Shown here: piece by piece, positions 12,331-29,156 of the stretch
How positions within the stretch are numbered: position 1 is the first letter of the stretch
How the letters are laid out: the number at the start of each line of letters is the position of its first letter
Assembly (NCBI GenBank): GCA_902535365.1
Contig: CACATF010000006.1
Span: forward strand, 1 to 36,681
From: an uncultured SAR86 cluster bacterium
Lineage (GTDB): Bacteria; Pseudomonadota; Gammaproteobacteria; Magnimaribacterales; TMED112
Length of the DNA stretch: 36,681 nucleotides
Direction of reading: 5' to 3'
Made by a program: the position numbers and the translations under genes
Notes under the pieces: generated by a model
The model's database searches: none
What the model was told of the DNA's origin: nothing
What the model saw: only the letters and a program-made list of their open reading frames with translations

Positions 12331-13121
12331 TGTCAAGAGATATTCTTCCATCAAAGAAGAAAATTCAAACCTTTATTTTTGGTAGTCTTTTAATATTAAT
12401 TCTTAATCTAATTTCTGATTCAATACAGCTAAATGAAAAAGCAAATAAAGCATTAACTAATCTATTGAATATACCAAGTAATTTTCTCTCTCAAGTTTTA
12501 CGCGATTATCAGGAATTTGAAAATGAAAGAATTGCAAAATTAGAAAATGATATTCTTGATTTGCAAAATACCATCTATGAGAAAGACTTAGAGATACAAT
12601 CTTTAGAAAATTCAAAGTCATACAACCCTGTTGTAAGGTCAAATAAAGATGAGAGTAACTCAAGCATCATTTCTTTTGACCAGTTAAATTTTAATTGTTG
12701 TAAAAAGCATAGAGTATATGTATCAAATCCAAATAATATTGTTGGAGATATACTCTCTGTTTCACAAGGAGATTTTGTTATTGGTAAGACTCGGACTATT
12801 TCTGACGAAGTAGAGGTTCGGTTGTTAAGTGATCCAGAGGAATATATATCAATAAAAAATACAAAAAACTTTTTTTGTATTGCCAATGGAAATGGTGAGC
12901 CCATGACTATCATTTGTAAAAATGAGTCAAAAGCAGTTGATTATGAGATTGGAGATACATTTTTCACTACTGGATTTGATGGTATCCATCCAGAAGGTTT
13001 AATTGTTGGAAGATTAACAAAAATTACCACAGAGGATGATTTTTTTAATGAAACACTAGAGATTGAATTATTTTTTAACCCATTTAAATCAATGAACAAG
13101 AGGGTGATTCTTCATGATTGA
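12330..13121 (+). CDS. mreC: Rod shape-determining protein MreC
   Basis: MreC is a single-pass inner-membrane protein whose periplasmic part scaffolds the elongasome (PBP2, RodA). The 263 residues contain a membrane segment at about 13-30, a coiled coil with repeated hydrophobic spacing at about 55-95 (FENERIAKLENDILDLQ), and a C-terminal beta-barrel domain with GDFVIGKTR and PEGLIVGRL. Sequence is divergent from model MreC, so identity leans partly on position between mreB and mreD. It ends in an 8-base ATGATTGA overlap with mreD. Confidence 0.92.
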   Translation: MSRDILPSKKKIQTFIFGSLLILILNLISDSIQLNEKANKALTNLLNIPSNFLSQVLRDYQEFENERIAKLENDILDLQNTIYEKDLEIQSLENSKSYNPVVRSNKDESNSSIISFDQLNFNCCKKHRVYVSNPNNIVGDILSVSQGDFVIGKTRTISDEVEVRLLSDPEEYISIKNTKNFFCIANGNGEPMTIICKNESKAVDYEIGDTFFTTGFDGIHPEGLIVGRLTKITTEDDFFNETLEIELFFNPFKSMNKRVILHD

Positions 13122-13572
13122 ACCTATTAGATTCCTGGCACTCTTTGGTCTTATTTGTATAAACTACATTTTTCTATCAACAAGCATCTGGGTTTGGACT
13201 CCAGATTTATTTGTTGTTTTTATCCTATTTCTAACAACACTGAAATCGAAACTACCAAATACTTACTCGTTTATTTTATATGGGTTCGCCATCGATTTAT
13301 TTTTTAGCAACCAGTCTCTTCCTTACACGATTACGTTTTTTTTAATTGGTGCTTACTTAAGTTTTTCCAATATCAAATGGATACAAAGGTCATTACTTGA
13401 ACAACTATTGATGATCATGTTGGTAAGCTTTTTCTTAAACATCCTTCTTAACCTTACAAATGATTATTACTTAAACATTGAAGCAAGGATAATCATAAAT
13501 CCATTAATGAATGCATTGATTTGGGCTGGAATATTCATGACACAGAGGCACAAATGGTTAAAGAATTTTTAA
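13114..13572 (+). CDS. mreD: Rod shape-determining protein MreD
   Basis: A 152-residue, very hydrophobic protein with about five membrane segments, matching MreD in size and topology; MreD helps MreC control the elongation synthase complex. Typical elements are TPDLFVVFILFLTT in the first half and the GFAIDLFFSNQSLP loop (compare G-x-x-xDL in MreD). Position directly after mreC is the strongest argument. Its first codons overlap mreC by eight bases, and its last 19 bases overlap the start of the next gene. Confidence 0.9.
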   Translation: MIEPIRFLALFGLICINYIFLSTSIWVWTPDLFVVFILFLTTLKSKLPNTYSFILYGFAIDLFFSNQSLPYTITFFLIGAYLSFSNIKWIQRSLLEQLLMIMLVSFFLNILLNLTNDYYLNIEARIIINPLMNALIWAGIFMTQRHKWLKNF

Positions 13573-17644: not shown

Positions 17645-18024
17645 CTCTTAAGCTTTATGACTAATGACTCTGATTTAATTTTATTGCCACTTTTAATAAT
17701 TGATACTGATTCAGACAAAATTAAATCATCGTTTTTAATTTCGACCTTTGCAGCTTCACCTTCTATATATTCATACCCGTCAAAAAAACTAATCTTAATC
17801 GGATTTCCAGTTGCATAAAATTCGTCTGTAGACTCAATAACGATCAGCTTATCTGCTTTAAAAGTTACATTTTCGGACTCAAACGAAACATTATCTTCAT
17901 AAATGATCCTATCAATATCGGTATTTATTTCTATTTTATCGGAAGTGATTGAGTACTCTTGTGCTTCAATTAGCCCATTTAAAGAGAAAAGCAATAAAAA
18001 AAATAGATTGAATTTATAAAACAT
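17641..18024 (-). CDS. lptA: LPS transport periplasmic protein LptA
   Basis: LptA forms the periplasmic beta-jellyroll bridge that carries lipopolysaccharide to the outer membrane. From ATG at 18024 it is 127 residues with a signal peptide ending near LIEA, followed by repeated beta-strands typical of the OstA/LptA fold (YSITSDKIEI, VTFKADKLIVIES, YIEGEAAKVEI, IKSESLVIKLK). E. coli LptA is about 185 residues, so this is a short form. Another ATG at 18042 adds six residues; neither has a strong ribosome-binding site and both overlap kdsD. The lptC and kdsC genes that usually sit upstream are missing here. Confidence 0.88.
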   Translation of the reverse strand: MFYKFNLFFLLLFSLNGLIEAQEYSITSDKIEINTDIDRIIYEDNVSFESENVTFKADKLIVIESTDEFYATGNPIKISFFDGYEYIEGEAAKVEIKNDDLILSESVSIIKSGNKIKSESLVIKLKR

Positions 18025-18979
18025 TTGCTTCAAGAATATCATGCATAGATATTATGCCTTTGATCTTTTCTGAATCCTTAACCAACAGATTAAATATTTT
18101 TAGCTCACTCATCATATTGGCAGCCTGTATAACAAGTTTGTCCGAGCTAATGGTCTTAAATTTCCTTGTCATTACTTCCCCAACTAAAACCTTTTTAATA
18201 TCTGTATTTTTCTGAAGACACCTTCTTAAGTCCCCGTCTGAAAATACTCCAATAACATTTTTCTTATCTGTAACTACCGCTAAACCTTGTTTTTTTGACG
18301 AAACTTCTACTATTAAATCAGATAAAGTATCAGTTTTTTTAACACTTGCAGTTTTTGAAATAGGGGTCATCAGATCTTTAACTCTAAGAGTTAATTTCTT
18401 ACCAAGTTTTCCGCCTGGATGTGACTTTGCAAAATCTTCAGCTGTGAATCCTCTAGCTTTTAAAAGTGAAATTGCTATTGCATCACCCAAAGCCAAAGTA
18501 ACAGTAGTGCTTGATGTTGGAGCCAGATCATTCGGACAAGCCTCTTTAGTGACCTTAACCCTTAAATGAACATCTGAAGCTGCTGCAATGGTAGATTTAT
18601 CATCTTCTGTTATTGAGCATAGTTTAATTTTTGAAAATTTAATTGCAGGAATAAGGTCGCAAACTTCTTTACTCTCTCCAGATTTTGAGATTGCCAAGAT
18701 AAGATCTTTTTTTTGTATCATTCCCAGATCACCATGAAGCGCTTCTGCTGGATGAATAAAGAATGAAGGTGTGCCAGTGCTAGAAAGTGTGGCCGAGATT
18801 TTATTTGCTATGTGTCCTGACTTGCCAACTCCCGTTAAAAATATTTTTCCTTTACATTGAAAAATTGCATCACATATTTCTTGAACATTGAAATCTTTCG
18901 AGCTCGAGAAAGACCTCATTTCTTCTAATTCTAATAAAAAAGCTTTTTTTGCTTCTTTTTGGAAATTAATTTTTTTCAT
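18014..18979 (-). CDS. kdsD: D-arabinose 5-phosphate isomerase
   Basis: KdsD converts ribulose 5-phosphate to arabinose 5-phosphate, the first step toward KDO, the inner-core sugar of lipopolysaccharide. The 321 residues hold a SIS domain with GVGKSGHIANKISATLSSTG and the HPAEALHGDLGM motif, then two CBS domains (about 200-320). It is the first gene of the minus-strand kdsD-lptA-lptB-mgtE run and is divergent from mlaC with only 19 bases between start codons. The usual next gene, kdsC (KDO-8-phosphate phosphatase), is absent. Confidence 0.97.
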   Translation of the reverse strand: MKKINFQKEAKKAFLLELEEMRSFSSSKDFNVQEICDAIFQCKGKIFLTGVGKSGHIANKISATLSSTGTPSFFIHPAEALHGDLGMIQKKDLILAISKSGESKEVCDLIPAIKFSKIKLCSITEDDKSTIAAASDVHLRVKVTKEACPNDLAPTSSTTVTLALGDAIAISLLKARGFTAEDFAKSHPGGKLGKKLTLRVKDLMTPISKTASVKKTDTLSDLIVEVSSKKQGLAVVTDKKNVIGVFSDGDLRRCLQKNTDIKKVLVGEVMTRKFKTISSDKLVIQAANMMSELKIFNLLVKDSEKIKGIISMHDILEANVL

Positions 18980-18986
18980 TTCAAAC

Positions 18987-18992
18987 TATAAT
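18987..18992 (+). promoter_or_regulatory. Candidate -10 element for mlaC
   Basis: A perfect TATAAT ends six bases before the mlaC ATG at 18999. If used, transcription would start at or next to the ATG, giving a leaderless message. No convincing -35 hexamer is seen at normal spacing. Confidence 0.4.
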
Positions 18993-18998
18993 CTACAC

Positions 18999-19604
18999 AT
19001 GATACGATTTTTTTTAACCAAATTTTTATTTGTTCTATCTTTTTCATCATTTCTTTATTCTGAAAAAATTCCAGAAATCCATGAATTTATTGATAAGAAT
19101 GCACAATATTTTTTGACAGTAATTAAAGAAGAAGGTTCAACTTATGATAATGAGCCTGAGAAATTTAAAACAAGGTTAAAAAATATTTGGGAACCAATGG
19201 TTGATGTTGGCTTGGTATCCAGGTTAATTCTTTCAAAAGCTTACGCAGGCGCTACACCAGAGCAGATTGTTGCATTTGAAGAGCAGACAAAAAAATTATT
19301 ATTAGATACATACGTTACAACCCTACTTGAATTTGAGGATTACAATCTAGAGACAAATGATGAAATTAAAATTAATAAACGGACATATGAAGTTTCAGTC
19401 AAATTCTTATCTAGCTCTGATTCTTTCATAACAAAATTTAGTGTTTATAAAAATAAGCTAGGAGAATACAAAATAATCAATATAATTATCGATGGAATAA
19501 ACTTAGGGTTAACGTTTCGCAATCAATTTCAAGATAATCTTGCGAATAATAATATGGATTTAGATAAGGCCATAGAAACGTGGGAACCTCTTTACATAAA
19601 TTAA
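18999..19604 (+). CDS. mlaC: MlaC-family phospholipid-binding periplasmic protein
   Basis: MlaC shuttles phospholipid between the outer-membrane MlaA complex and the inner-membrane MlaFEDB transporter. The 201 residues begin with a signal peptide ending near FLYS, followed by family patterns: DVGLVSRLILSKAYAGATPEQIVAFEEQ, the LLLDTYVTTLLEFEDY segment, and the C-terminal YKIINIIIDGINLGLTFRNQF. The start at 18999 is chosen because it begins the signal peptide; the open frame extends upstream into kdsD antisense. The partners mlaF, mlaE, mlaD and mlaB are not here, although in many gammaproteobacteria they lie exactly at this spot. murA follows three bases after the stop. Confidence 0.88.
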   Translation: MIRFFLTKFLFVLSFSSFLYSEKIPEIHEFIDKNAQYFLTVIKEEGSTYDNEPEKFKTRLKNIWEPMVDVGLVSRLILSKAYAGATPEQIVAFEEQTKKLLLDTYVTTLLEFEDYNLETNDEIKINKRTYEVSVKFLSSSDSFITKFSVYKNKLGEYKIINIIIDGINLGLTFRNQFQDNLANNNMDLDKAIETWEPLYIN

Positions 19605-21825: not shown

Positions 21826-21834
21826 GTTTCAAAT

Positions 21835-21862
21835 CCGCTACCTTTATATTAATATATAGCGG
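21835..21862. promoter_or_regulatory. Inverted repeat between degS and rplM start codons
   Basis: CCGCTA (21835-21840) and TAGCGG (21857-21862) form a 6-base inverted repeat enclosing an AT-rich, itself nearly palindromic centre (TATATTAATATA). It fills the middle of the only 55-base divergent gap here. It could be a protein-binding operator for both promoters, or an RNA hairpin in an rplM leader; sequence alone does not decide. Confidence 0.4.
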
Positions 21863-21880
21863 GTCAACTTTGAGCAAAAC

Positions 21881-25193: not shown

Positions 25194-25810
25194 TTTTTTA
25201 TTCTGAAGAAAAAGGCCATTATAGCCATATGGTTAGATTAGTATTGGCTGAGAAAGATATTTCATGTGAGATTAAGGAATTTGATCCAACTGAAAAACTC
25301 CCAGAGGAATTGCCAACTTTAAACCCTTATAACAAGCTTCCTGTTCTTGTTGATAGGGAAGTCACAATTTATGAGCCAAGAGTAATTCTAGAATATCTGG
25401 ATGAAAGATTTCCTCACCCACCTCTTCTACCAATATACCCAAACAATAAAGCGGAGTGCAGGCTCTTAATTCACAGAATAGAAAAAGATTGGCTACCAGT
25501 AATTGATAAAATGATGAGCCCAAAAATTAGTCAAAAGGAGTTTGATGCACAAAAAAAAGAATTGGTTTCTTTAGTTTCAGGCATTGTTCTTGTTTTAAAA
25601 GAAAAACCATACTTTATGAGCGATGAATTTACACTTGTGGATTGTTATATGAGTGCAATCTTATATAGGCTTCCATACTTAGGTGTCACAACTCCTAATT
25701 CAAAATCATTTGAAAGTTTAAGAAAGTATCAGGAAAAACTGTTTTCTCGACCTAGTTTTGACCTGTCACTAACTGATGCAGAAAGAGATTTAAAGTATTC
25801 TTTTAATTAA
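25190..25810 (+). CDS. sspA: Stringent starvation protein A
   Basis: SspA is a glutathione-S-transferase-like protein that binds RNA polymerase and modifies transcription in starvation and acid stress. The 206 residues show the thioredoxin-like N-domain (SHMVRLVLAEKDI, NPYNKLPVLVDR, YEPRVILEYLDERFPHPPLLP) and the helical C-domain. The place after petABC is the usual gammaproteobacterial one. Its common partner sspB, which delivers ssrA-tagged proteins to ClpXP, is not next to it: the following gene is convergent lpoA, overlapping by eight bases. Confidence 0.94.
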   Translation: MIFYSEEKGHYSHMVRLVLAEKDISCEIKEFDPTEKLPEELPTLNPYNKLPVLVDREVTIYEPRVILEYLDERFPHPPLLPIYPNNKAECRLLIHRIEKDWLPVIDKMMSPKISQKEFDAQKKELVSLVSGIVLVLKEKPYFMSDEFTLVDCYMSAILYRLPYLGVTTPNSKSFESLRKYQEKLFSRPSFDLSLTDAERDLKYSFN

Positions 25811-26867
25811 AATAAGAGCTGGCTTTAAGTTGCCCATCAACTAACTCATAAGTTGCTAGGTACCCCTTAAATTTACCCTCAAGGTTATTGCTTATTGCAA
25901 AAGCTATCATCATTGAATCAAAGCCCAAACTAAAACTTCTGCTTTTAGCTAAATCGTACCCATATTTATTTGTATAAGTGTGATCAACAAGCTTGATATC
26001 GTGTAGCTCAATCTCGTTTGGATCTAAAGATTCCTGAAGATTAGATGTTAATGAGATGATTTCATAATTAAGCCCGTAATTAAACCTTACCAAAGATGCA
26101 AGCCGATACAGTTCTGTGGAGTTTTCTGGGAAAACAATAATATGATTGAAATCATTACGCGCCCTTGGAACAAAATTTACCTTTGCAAAACTTGCTTTAT
26201 CTATTTTGTTAAATCTCTGTTTGCTTTCTGAGACATCAAGAAAATTTTCAATTCTGCTTTCAGAGTCAGATGAAGCATCAATTGTAATTGCATCACGATC
26301 TTCGCTGAACCATGATTTTTTGAACAATTGTTCACCTTCACCCCCACTTGATTTACCACTTATTATTCCAACTCTATTAATTTCAGTTTCTTCTAGGTAA
26401 TTTGTTAAAGCAGATATTTGTGGCTCATTATTTAGCGAAAGATAATAATTTTCTTGCGCTTCATTTAACATCAATGCTCTATCCTTAACGAGCAGACCAT
26501 CTGTCTTTGAAACAATTTTTTTATTTATTGGGCCAATAAGAAAATTTTTATTTGCCTTCCTCATATTTAGTTCATTTTGGTTTGTAAACTCAATTTTGTT
26601 ACCTATGCCAAAATGTTTTATTGCTGAAAAGACTCCAATTTGAAAGTAATTATTAAATTCTTGATAGTCCTTATAATCTGGTAGTGCAAATATATATGAA
26701 TTGCTAAATGATAGATCCTCAGAATCAAAATTTATCTCAGTTAGGCCTGTAAACAAAAAGCTTTCTTCTTCAACAAATATTACCTCAGATTTTTTTATCT
26801 CCACAGGAGATGCACAGCTAATAATTACTAGTAAATAAATTACAATATAAAGTATTCTTGAAATCAT
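25803..26867 (-). CDS. lpoA: LpoA-like penicillin-binding protein activator lipoprotein, short form
   Basis: LpoA is an outer-membrane lipoprotein that activates the peptidoglycan synthase PBP1a. The protein has a lipoprotein signal with lipobox IISC (Cys18). The rest resembles the C-terminal, periplasmic-binding-protein-like domain of LpoA: a segment near INRVGIISG, then RFNKIDKASFAKVNFVPRARND followed by FNHIIVFPEN, and the final GYDLAKSRSFSLGFDSMMIA. At 354 residues it is about half of E. coli LpoA (about 680), as if the N-terminal TPR domain were absent. The family assignment leans on context: in gammaproteobacteria lpoA is divergent from rsmI, as here. Its ATG overlaps the rsmI ATG on the other strand. 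Confidence 0.72.
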   Translation of the reverse strand: MISRILYIVIYLLVIISCASPVEIKKSEVIFVEEESFLFTGLTEINFDSEDLSFSNSYIFALPDYKDYQEFNNYFQIGVFSAIKHFGIGNKIEFTNQNELNMRKANKNFLIGPINKKIVSKTDGLLVKDRALMLNEAQENYYLSLNNEPQISALTNYLEETEINRVGIISGKSSGGEGEQLFKKSWFSEDRDAITIDASSDSESRIENFLDVSESKQRFNKIDKASFAKVNFVPRARNDFNHIIVFPENSTELYRLASLVRFNYGLNYEIISLTSNLQESLDPNEIELHDIKLVDHTYTNKYGYDLAKSRSFSLGFDSMMIAFAISNNLEGKFKGYLATYELVDGQLKASSYFN

Positions 26868-27696
26868 GACTTTCTATATTATACCTTCTCCAATTGGCAA
26901 TCTTGATGATATTACCATCAGAGCAAAAAAAATTTTGAAGGACATAGATTTTCTGATTGTAGAAAATAAAAAAGTTACAAGTAAGCTCTTAAGCGCTCTT
27001 GATATCAAGAAGAAGAAAATAATTACTTACAACGATACATCGTCAGCTAAAGACAGAACTAAAATAATCGAGCTTATTAAAAAAGGTTTAACGGGTGGTT
27101 TGGTCTCTGATTCTGGGACGCCTCTTATATCAGATCCTGGCTTCAAGCTAATATCAGAAATAATTAAGAACGATTTCAGATTGATATCGTTGCCTGGCCC
27201 AACATCTGTAATTACTGCTTTAGCAGGCAGTGGCCTAAGTACAGATAATTTTCAGTTTTTAGGTTTTTTCCCTAGAAAAAAAATTGAACAGAGCAAGATA
27301 TTAAAAAAAATAAAAATGTATGAGGGCACTTCCATATTTTTTGAGTCTCCAAAACGTCTCTTAGCAACATTAGAGGTAATGCAGGCAAACCTTAATAACC
27401 AAACAAAGATTTGTGTAGCCAAAGAGCTAACAAAAATACATGAAAGCTATATACGTGGAACTTTTTCAGAGGTTTTAAGTTTTTTTTCTAAAAACCAAGA
27501 AAAAATAAAAGGTGAATTCATTCTGCTGATTGATGTAGTTCCTGATTCAATTGACATAAATACTGCAGATGAAATTTTTGAAATATTAAAAAATGATTTA
27601 AGTATCAAGATGATATCAAAATTGGCATCTGGCATAACTGGACTGAGCAAAAATGATCTATACAAAAGATTCTTGTCATTATCTAAAAAGAACTGA
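26866..27696 (+). CDS. rsmI: 16S rRNA (cytidine-1402-2'-O)-methyltransferase
   Basis: RsmI methylates the ribose of C1402 in the decoding centre of 16S rRNA. The 276 residues match the tetrapyrrole-methylase-like family: IPSPIGNLDDITIRA at the N-terminus, VSDSGTPLISDPGFKLI, LPGPTSVITALAGSGLSTDNFQFLGFFPRK, and the KELTKIHES segment. The conserved N-terminus starts immediately after the ATG, so the start is firm even though it overlaps the start codon of lpoA. rnpB begins about a dozen bases after the stop, and its promoter seems to lie in the last codons of this gene. Confidence 0.97.
   Translation: MTFYIIPSPIGNLDDITIRAKKILKDIDFLIVENKKVTSKLLSALDIKKKKIITYNDTSSAKDRTKIIELIKKGLTGGLVSDSGTPLISDPGFKLISEIIKNDFRLISLPGPTSVITALAGSGLSTDNFQFLGFFPRKKIEQSKILKKIKMYEGTSIFFESPKRLLATLEVMQANLNNQTKICVAKELTKIHESYIRGTFSEVLSFFSKNQEKIKGEFILLIDVVPDSIDINTADEIFEILKNDLSIKMISKLASGITGLSKNDLYKRFLSLSKKN
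26878..26883 (-). promoter_or_regulatory. Candidate -10 element for lpoA inside rsmI
   Basis: Minus-strand TATAAT lies ten bases before the lpoA ATG, within codons 5-6 of rsmI. A start site about seven bases on would leave a leader of only a few bases. The best -35 at 17-base spacing (TCAAGA) is poor. Confidence 0.35.
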
Positions 27697-27708: not shown

Positions 27709-28036
27709 CTGAGTTGGTCGAGCTATCGCTTAATTTTAAGAGGAAAGTCCGGACTTCAAAGAGCAGAGTGCCAGTTAACAACTGGGGGACGTGAGTCTAC
27801 GGCTAGTGCAACAGAAAGTATACCGCCTCATTGAGGTAAGGGTGAAATGGTGAGGTAAGAGCTCACCGCCTAATTTAGTTTAGGGCAGTGTAAACCCCAC
27901 TCGAAGCAATGCCAAATAGAGATTGAATTATGTTGCTCGCATACAATCTGGGTAGGCAGCATGAGTGTCTTGGCAACAAGGCACCTAGATAAATGATGGC
28001 TAAAACAGAATCCGGCTTATAGACCAACTCACACCT
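27709..28036 (+). ncRNA. rnpB: RNase P RNA, bacterial class A
   Basis: The catalytic RNA of RNase P, which matures tRNA 5' ends. Helix P1 is closed by GAGTTGGTC (27711-27719) and GACCAACTC (28022-28030). The universally conserved core is present: GAGGAAAGTCC at 27740-27750, AGTGCAACAGAAAG, the TAAGGGTGAAATGGTGAGGTAAGAG block, GCCAAATAGAG, the L15 segment GGGTAGGC that pairs with tRNA CCA, and the P4 partner ACAGAATCCGGCTTATAG at 28005-28022. The P3 region appears reduced to a tiny CTTA/TAAG hairpin, and the whole RNA is about 328 bases against 377 in E. coli. Ends are estimated from P1 and the trailing ACACCT. I see no terminator; ftsZ begins 20 bases later. Confidence 0.96.
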
Positions 28037-28040
28037 GTCC

Positions 28041-28046
28041 TATAAA
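28041..28046 (+). promoter_or_regulatory. Candidate -10 element for ftsZ
   Basis: TATAAA lies nine bases before the ftsZ ATG, between rnpB and ftsZ. There is no ribosome-binding site and no clear -35. If active it would produce a nearly leaderless ftsZ message; otherwise ftsZ is read through from rnpB. Confidence 0.3.
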
Positions 28047-28055
28047 ATTCTATTT

Positions 28056-29156
28056 ATGACATGGCAAATTCTTGACCAAGAATATGAGCAGGCAAAAATT
28101 GCCGTAATTGGCATTGGCGGAGGCGGAGGCAATATGGTTAACCATATGATTAACTCTGGGATACGTGGAGTTGATTTTATTTGTGCAAATACTGACTCAC
28201 AAGACTTAAGTAAAATTCAAAAAGCAAAATTAATTAAACTCGGCAATGATCAAACAAGAGGTCTGGGAGCTGGAAATGATCCATTGCAAGGAAAGTTGGC
28301 AGCAGAATTAAGTTTGGATGAGATTGAAGAATGTCTTAAAAATACTGAAATGGTATTTATTACAGCTGGAATGGGTGGTGGAACAGGAACAGGTGCAGCC
28401 CCTGTTATTGCAAAATTAGCAAAAGATATGGGAATACTTACCATTGGGGTAGTAACCACTCCATTTAAATATGAAAAACAAAAAAGAGCTGATCAAGCTG
28501 AAGCAGGAATTCAGCAGCTATGGAACCATGTGGATTCAATTATTGAAATAAATAACGAAAAGATTTTTGAAACATTCCCTAGAAACACACCTTTTAAAGA
28601 AGGCTTGAATGCTGTTAATAATGTTCTTGTAAATGCTGTAAGAGCTGTTACTGAAGTAATACTAAATCCAGCAACGATGAATGTAGATTTTGCTGATGTA
28701 GAAGCAGCAATGTCACAAGGCGGGAAAGCAATAATGGGCTATGGGCAAGGAAGTGGTGTTAATAGAGCAAAAGAGGCAGTTGATAATGCACTTAACAGCC
28801 CATTTTTTGATAAAGCTGAAGTTAGGAATGCAAAAGGTTTAATAATAAATATATGTGGCTCTTCCTCCATAGGAAATGAGGAAGTTAAAGAGATCATGGA
28901 ACATGCAGGAAGCATTGGTGTTGATGGCGTGGAAGCTATTCCTGGTTTGACCATTGATGAGTCATGTGAAAATGATATCTTTGTAACAATTATAGCAACT
29001 GGCTTAAGGAGATTTGATTTAGATGGTTTTCAGGAGCGAGTTCTGAGGCCAGTAAGTCCAATTTCAGCAACAAGACCAGTATCAGATGGGTATGTTGATA
29101 TAGGAAGCATCGAAACTATCAACATTAAAGATACTTTTAGGAGACTGAATAATTAA
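28056..29156 (+). CDS. ftsZ: Cell division protein FtsZ
   Basis: FtsZ is the tubulin-like GTPase that forms the division ring. The 366 residues include the N-terminal GTP-binding region (KIAVIGIGGGGGN), the tubulin signature GGGTGTGAAP at 107-116 and the T7 catalytic loop NVDFAD at 209-214. The globular part ends near residue 318; the linker is only about 35 residues, and the C-terminal peptide reads INIKDTFRRLNN instead of the usual LDIPAFLRKQAD type that binds FtsA and ZipA. The gene lies directly after rnpB and before rsmH, in the place of mraZ, rather than at the end of the dcw cluster after ftsA. Confidence 0.97.
   Translation: MTWQILDQEYEQAKIAVIGIGGGGGNMVNHMINSGIRGVDFICANTDSQDLSKIQKAKLIKLGNDQTRGLGAGNDPLQGKLAAELSLDEIEECLKNTEMVFITAGMGGGTGTGAAPVIAKLAKDMGILTIGVVTTPFKYEKQKRADQAEAGIQQLWNHVDSIIEINNEKIFETFPRNTPFKEGLNAVNNVLVNAVRAVTEVILNPATMNVDFADVEAAMSQGGKAIMGYGQGSGVNRAKEAVDNALNSPFFDKAEVRNAKGLIINICGSSSIGNEEVKEIMEHAGSIGVDGVEAIPGLTIDESCENDIFVTIIATGLRRFDLDGFQERVLRPVSPISATRPVSDGYVDIGSIETINIKDTFRRLNN
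29139..29143 (+). promoter_or_regulatory. Ribosome binding site for rsmH non-ATG start
   Basis: AGGAG inside the last codons of ftsZ lies eight bases before an ATT at 29152 (and five before an ATA at 29149), but 26 bases before the first conventional codon, TTG at 29170. It supports a start at ATT. Confidence 0.55.

Follow-up and report, generated by a model that had tools for sequence, protein, structure and literature searches.

Leaderless genes have been surveyed by Zheng et al. 2011 (PMC3160421), who report them in 15 of 239 gamma-proteobacterial genomes at a mean of 4.5%, mostly in the Xanthomonadales and Legionellales. In Deinococcus radiodurans, a -10 element directly before the open reading frame drives leaderless messages from about a third of genes, as established by experiment (PMC12340547). 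Warman et al. 2026 (PMC12825309) describe bidirectional promoters of Escherichia coli in which start-to-start distances of 18, 10 and 23 bp are common. As far as these accounts go, two arrangements are already known separately: a leaderless gene whose -10 adjoins it, and a bidirectional promoter whose two directions share one -10. The two combined in one intergenic region of 19-20 bp, or leaderless use across SAR86, did not turn up among the titles and abstract openings of the open-licence literature.

SAR86 bacteria are widespread, uncultivated inhabitants of the surface ocean. The stretch of DNA analysed here (the window, 36,681 nucleotides) comes from a SAR86 genome of 927,839 bases in 16 contigs that is 86.6% complete. 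We propose, with a probability of roughly three in four, that leaderless transcription is a habit of the whole SAR86 order, that the 19-bp gap between two divergent genes of the window is a minimal promoter, and that one such box may sometimes serve two divergent genes.

The kdsD/mlaC gap and its relatives

The features of the locus are as follows.
18014 to 18979, minus strand: kdsD-like gene with SIS and CBS domains (Pfam), possibly leaderless from the shared -10
18980 to 18998, no strand: 19-bp gap separating the ATGs of kdsD and mlaC, which point away from each other (18 bp in three relatives)
18985 to 18990, minus strand: candidate -10 TATAGT of kdsD, five bases before its ATG; TATAGT is present in 13 of 19 genus loci, at five bases in 11 and at four in 2
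18987 to 18992, plus strand: -10 hexamer TATAAT of mlaC, invariant in all 19 readable genus loci
18999 to 19604, plus strand: mlaC, predicted leaderless (Pfam MlaC PF05494, 101 bits)

The complete gap reads ttcaaactataatctacac. TATAAT is followed by six bases (ctacac) and then by the mlaC ATG at 18999, just as an earlier note on this DNA had described it. The kdsD start codon is the ATG at 18979 on the minus strand, and at 18 of the 19 genus loci the tblastn match to the protein takes in its very first residue; the TATA core is common to the TATAAT of mlaC and the opposite TATAGT of kdsD. In sigma70 promoters transcription usually begins seven bases past the -10, and counting seven from the last base of the hexamer gives a predicted mlaC start at the first base of its ATG. 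None of mlaC, kdsD, lpoA and ftsZ has a Shine-Dalgarno (SD) motif (GGAG, GAGG or AGGA) 5-20 nt upstream, which agrees with the absence of ribosome-binding sites claimed earlier for mlaC, lpoA and ftsZ, and reading by eye revealed no suitably spaced -35 consensus ahead of the mlaC box.

The genus set comprises 21 genomes, 19 of them with a readable mlaC start; of the other two, one yielded nothing and one matched at the end of the gene only. The mlaC proteins of the genus are 62-71% identical to that of the window, four-fold third positions of the gene agree pairwise in 3033 of 6613 comparisons (46%), and one of 15 such columns is invariant. Beside these positions, TATAAT and its six-base spacing are identical in 19 of 19 loci. 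The gap measures 19 bp in 16 loci and 18 bp in 3, and is never longer than 19 bp; its 19-bp version, CAT-N7-TATAAT-N6-ATG, occurs at the locus in 16 of the 21 genomes. The kdsD side is more variable, with TATAGT in 13 of 19 loci (five bases from the ATG in 11, four in 2) and, in the remaining 6, a TATA whose sixth base is not T. The candidate pair of overlapping -10 hexamers at this locus consists of an invariant TATAAT and a less constant opposite TATAGT, the latter in 13 of 19 loci.

Across the order, 58 of the 61 genomes searched have an MlaC. In family f3, TATAAT lies 6-7 nt before an in-frame mlaC ATG in all six fetched loci, two of which have a second in-frame ATG nine bases earlier; TG stands one base before TATAAT in some of them, which is the extended -10 form. 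The kdsD match in this family begins about 60-85 bases before the mlaC match, with the kdsD start further from mlaC. TATAAT was found near the mlaC start in none of five loci of family f2, and it lies 21 nt before the first mlaC ATG in the f4 genome G023.

We propose that RNA polymerase with the housekeeping sigma factor would recognise TATAAT at 18987-18992 and initiate transcription of mlaC some seven bases further on, with the A of the start codon as the first base. A message of this kind would carry neither leader nor SD, and so would have to be started by ribosomes binding the 5'-terminal AUG. The TATA core is identical in either direction, so this box, as a minus-strand TATAGT, probably initiates kdsD as well, no more than about a base away from the kdsD ATG; it would offer room for one polymerase at a time. 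The two-way part of this proposal is less sure at kdsD than in the symmetric pairs of other SAR86 families described below, where we regard it as likely. At six of the 19 loci the minus-strand hexamer has lost its final T, and its distance from the kdsD ATG varies between four and five bases, so kdsD may use another promoter. According to the strongest competing explanation, which we rate somewhat below even odds, only mlaC is leaderless from the box, and kdsD has a promoter of its own within the mlaC coding sequence, giving a short leader that lacks an SD. A kdsD side that shifts by one base while the mlaC side never varies, and the greater distance of the kdsD start from mlaC in f3, would fit such a promoter; a TATAGT that most of the genus retains at five bases from the kdsD start codon, a gap that never exceeds 19 bp in 19 loci and the perfect symmetry of other SAR86 pairs speak against it.

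ftsZ, lpoA and other genes of the window

Three further features concern the other genes for which the earlier note had suspected leaderless starts.
25803 to 26867, minus strand: lpoA-like gene, a weak case, named by its position beside rsmI, with TATAAT ten bases before its ATG
28043 to 28048, plus strand: -10-like TAAAAT of ftsZ, seven bases before its ATG, in the register kept by relatives
28056 to 29156, plus strand: ftsZ, predicted to be leaderless and separated by 20 bp from the RNase P RNA gene before it

For ftsZ, the earlier note had pointed to TATAAA nine bases before the ATG. This hexamer is present, but seven named relatives (FtsZ identity 64-71%) all keep TAAAAT or TAGAAT exactly six bases before the ATG, and the relative G012 has TAAAAT at the same distance; we accordingly preferred TAAAAT at seven bases, whose register is conserved, to the TATAAA at nine. 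Purine-rich, SD-like stretches stand there instead in G043 of family f3 (ggggaaaat) and in G023 of family f4 (aggaggaaatt). Within one order, ftsZ seems to have switched between an SD start (f3 and f4) and a leaderless-type start (the window's genus).

The RNase P RNA gene occupies 27710-28035 (RF00010, 310.8 bits). Its end 20 bp before the ftsZ ATG suggests another origin of the ftsZ message, namely read-through from the RNase P RNA gene with 3' processing that leaves a short leader. This is unlikely in our judgement, given that all seven named relatives maintain the hexamer at a distance of exactly six bases and the window has it at seven. We continue to favour a leaderless start of ftsZ from its own -10. 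As a separate observation, the interval between the RNase P RNA gene and ftsZ appears to leave little room for a terminator.

The rsmH gene apparently starts with ATT at 29152-29154, overlapping the ftsZ stop, and if this is its start, the gene has GGAG upstream, in line with the strong site ascribed to it earlier. ATT occupies the same position in the six named relatives whose sequence covers the end of ftsZ (L211-L215 and L217) and in G012, while the start codon is ATG in G043 and TTG in G023. RsmH methylates C1402 of 16S rRNA, a site tied to start-codon fidelity, and infC is subject to feedback through its AUU start; an AUU start of rsmH could therefore give feedback like that of infC.

The case of lpoA is weaker than the earlier note had assumed. 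TATAAT is present within the beginning of rsmI, ten bases ahead of the lpoA ATG, but this spacing would leave a leader of 3-4 nt, and in G012 (the one relative checked, by eye) the hexamer reads TTATGT and is not kept. A Pfam search with the lpoA-like protein gave no family at E 0.001. The gene and its divergent neighbour rsmI have start codons that overlap by two bases (CATG, 26865-26868) and abut in G012 (CATATG), so that each promoter must lie within the other gene. The strong SDs reported at gatB (AGGAGGTGACAGATTG) and the maoC-like gene (GGGAGGAAAAATG) are indeed there. The window has eight divergent first genes; for two of these, degS and rplM, the interval 4-11 nt from the ATG contains no -10-like hexamer. 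The gap between these two genes (55 bp, 21826-21880) holds a palindrome, TATATTAATATA, which is kept in G012 and is possibly a bidirectional promoter with longer leaders.

Spacing and Shine-Dalgarno counts across the order

The sample of the source genome covers 436,681 bases with crude gene calls, giving 204 first genes and 212 internal operon genes; that of G012 includes 60,000 N in its 400 kb. Hexamers were scored with a fixed matrix built on E. coli frequencies, and expected values were taken from spacings 15-45. A free motif search by expectation-maximisation was dropped, as it did not converge on the same motif across samples.

The tendency that the earlier note had suspected from three genes is borne out by a scan of -10-to-ATG distances in the sample of the source genome. 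At 5-9 nt before the start codon, first genes of the source genome have 46 -10-like hexamers against 13.4 expected (Poisson P 2.6e-12), 20 of them at spacing 6, and internal genes show a smaller excess (26 against 14.0, P 2.7e-3). The corresponding counts in G012 are 23 against 10.3 for first and 25 against 12.4 for internal genes. First genes give 23 against 14.4 (P 0.02) in G023 and 22 against 15.8 in G043 (P 0.08, not significant), and no excess is seen at the first genes of the two outgroups, with 24 against 27.1 in G098 and 15 against 24.4 in G112. The excess amounts to about 16% of first genes in the source genome, a rough lower bound, since the gene caller mis-set starts (within the window, for example, genes 23278, 24675 and 34542) and also missed the open reading frame 13114-13572. 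The bare pattern TATAATN{4,8}ATG is unremarkable in the whole source genome, at 64 occurrences against 58 of the reversed pattern; what carries the signal is the precise distance to the ATG and the placement of the hexamers ahead of genes.

SD motifs are counted below at first and at internal genes, with control stretches in brackets.
Source genome: first 17/204 (14), internal 42/212 (16), Fisher P 1.1e-3
G012: first 13/145 (6), internal 50/176 (28), P 9.5e-6
G043: first 29/192 (16), internal 60/191 (26), P 1.7e-4
G023: first 33/188 (11), internal 40/205 (22), P 0.70
Outgroup G098: first 40/225 (6), internal 39/154 (9), P 0.09
Outgroup G112: first 76/222 (9), internal 44/116 (7), P 0.55

First genes are thus poorer in SD motifs than internal genes in three of the four SAR86 samples, with a significant difference in neither outgroup. 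The division proposed earlier, between leaderless first genes and SD-dependent downstream genes, holds as a statistical tendency in the source genome, G012 and G043 and is absent in G023. It is not strict: first genes of the source genome have almost no SD excess over the control, but about 80% of its internal genes also lack an SD. The usual 16S tail is matched over 12 bases (GATCACCTCCTT) at two places in this genome, and these putative 16S-tail matches are consistent with an intact anti-SD.

At the scale of the order, TATAAT-N6-ATG was compared with TATAAT-N15-ATG, which has the same codon phase and needs no gene calls. The counts at N6 and N15 were 411 and 184 in family f1 (21 genomes, ratio 2.23), 439 and 282 in f2 (20 genomes, 1.56), 699 and 387 in f3 (20 genomes, 1.81) and 424 and 210 in f4 (20 genomes, 2.02). 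N6 exceeds N15 in 78 of 81 SAR86-order genomes, which are related and so are not independent trials. Among 69 non-SAR86 gammaproteobacteria, one per family, the totals were 1182 and 1098 (ratio 1.08), with N6 ahead in 41, and the reversed patterns gave ratios of 0.87-1.03. A Markov estimate predicts 20-31 N15 matches per Mb in SAR86; the 184 observed in the 21 f1 genomes fall below this prediction, which indicates that the estimate overstates chance. A -10-like hexamer about 10-12 bp before the start codon was found above chance at mlaC, at first genes and order-wide. In our reading, many first genes of SAR86 have a -10 box some six bases ahead of the ATG. The leaderless transcription suspected earlier is well supported by conservation at mlaC and ftsZ, and as a tendency of genome and order, with lpoA left as its weak member.

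That mlaC is transcribed from promoters further upstream in kdsD, its TATAAT near the ATG being an AT-rich accident or an aid to ribosome binding, seems very improbable: a genome of about 65% A+T (in the sample) and the bare count of 64 against 58 would allow it, but all 19 loci keep the six bases and their distance unchanged where synonymous sites are saturated, the spacing peak before first genes is sharp, and the AT-richer outgroup G098 (29% GC) has no excess.

Divergent pairs elsewhere in SAR86 and comparison with known systems

Two overlapping matches in G050 and G023 yielded the symmetric pattern CAT-N6-ATTATAAT-N6-ATG, in which the ATGs are 20 bp apart and -10 hexamers overlap on both strands. 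It occurs in 41 of 151 genomes of the order, at 42 places, and in 5 of 182 other gammaproteobacterial genomes. The reversed pattern was found in 0 of 151 order genomes, a weak control, since by the Markov estimate (four SAR86 samples) it is 4-6 times rarer; in the scan of other gammaproteobacteria it was found in 2 of all 185 genomes. By genus, the pattern is present in 6 of 7 genomes of g4, 8 of 8 of g14, 11 of 16 of g3, 6 of 7 of g10, 7 of 19 of g5 and 3 of 16 of g7; the window's genus has a perfect copy in 0 of 21. In 14 of the 15 genomes of g4 and g14, which are all 14 with the pattern, fdxA begins exactly at one of its two ATGs, and the gene opposite is cinA in G023, the one genome in which the flanking genes were read. 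In the other genera with the pattern, fdxA is either at another place or was not detected. The distinct symmetric loci number about 6, close to the 3-7 or so expected by chance (Markov, 0.019-0.040 per Mb over roughly 175 Mb), so the argument is carried by conservation across several species and not by the count.

Close divergent pairs are also more frequent in the SAR86 samples than in the outgroups. Gaps of at most 30 bp make up 25 of 182 divergent pairs in the four SAR86 samples and 4 of 95 in the two outgroups (P 0.013), and gaps of at most 60 bp make up 83 of 182 and 16 of 95 (P 1.5e-6). Examples, named from the proteins as read and without a family search, are purE/def (gap 23) and a peptidase gene with tyrS (gap 25) in the source genome, ispB/rplU (gap 16) in G012, and rraA with an RNase II-like gene in G023 (gap 22), the last also around ATTATAAT.

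A bolder generalisation, which we put forward tentatively and at a little less than even odds, is that divergent pairs of SAR86 act as "two-way leaderless switches". One palindromic -10, six bases from each start codon, would then be the whole intergenic region, the orientation of the polymerase would pick which leaderless protein is made, and the arrangement would have arisen several times (kdsD/mlaC, fdxA/cinA and others). If so, a leaderless pair on one 20-bp symmetric -10 would be near the smallest possible regulated intergenic region, and polymerase orientation would be a testable switch. Should a good share of SAR86 first genes be leaderless, start-codon annotation, promoter prediction and the reading of metatranscriptomes would need another model, and a gammaproteobacterial lineage would join the Actinobacteria and Deinococcus-Thermus for the study of leaderless initiation.

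The SAR86 signature resembles the TA-led leaderless genes of PMC3160421, in which a -10-like TANNNT about 12 bp upstream of the start codon replaces the SD; unlike in that survey, whose passages used here do not name SAR86, it spans one gammaproteobacterial order. It likewise recalls Deinococcus-Thermus (PMC12340547) in having a -10 motif that adjoins the open reading frame; that group belongs to another phylum, and the main text of the paper contains neither "bidirectional" nor "divergent". With the shared symmetric -10 promoters of PMC12825309, whose main text does not use the word "leaderless", the SAR86 pairs would have in common divergent starts on either side of, or within, one -10. They would differ in distance from the common E. 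coli spacings: if both genes are leaderless, the ATGs would set the start points 20 bp apart at kdsD/mlaC and 21 bp apart in the pairs with a 20-bp gap.
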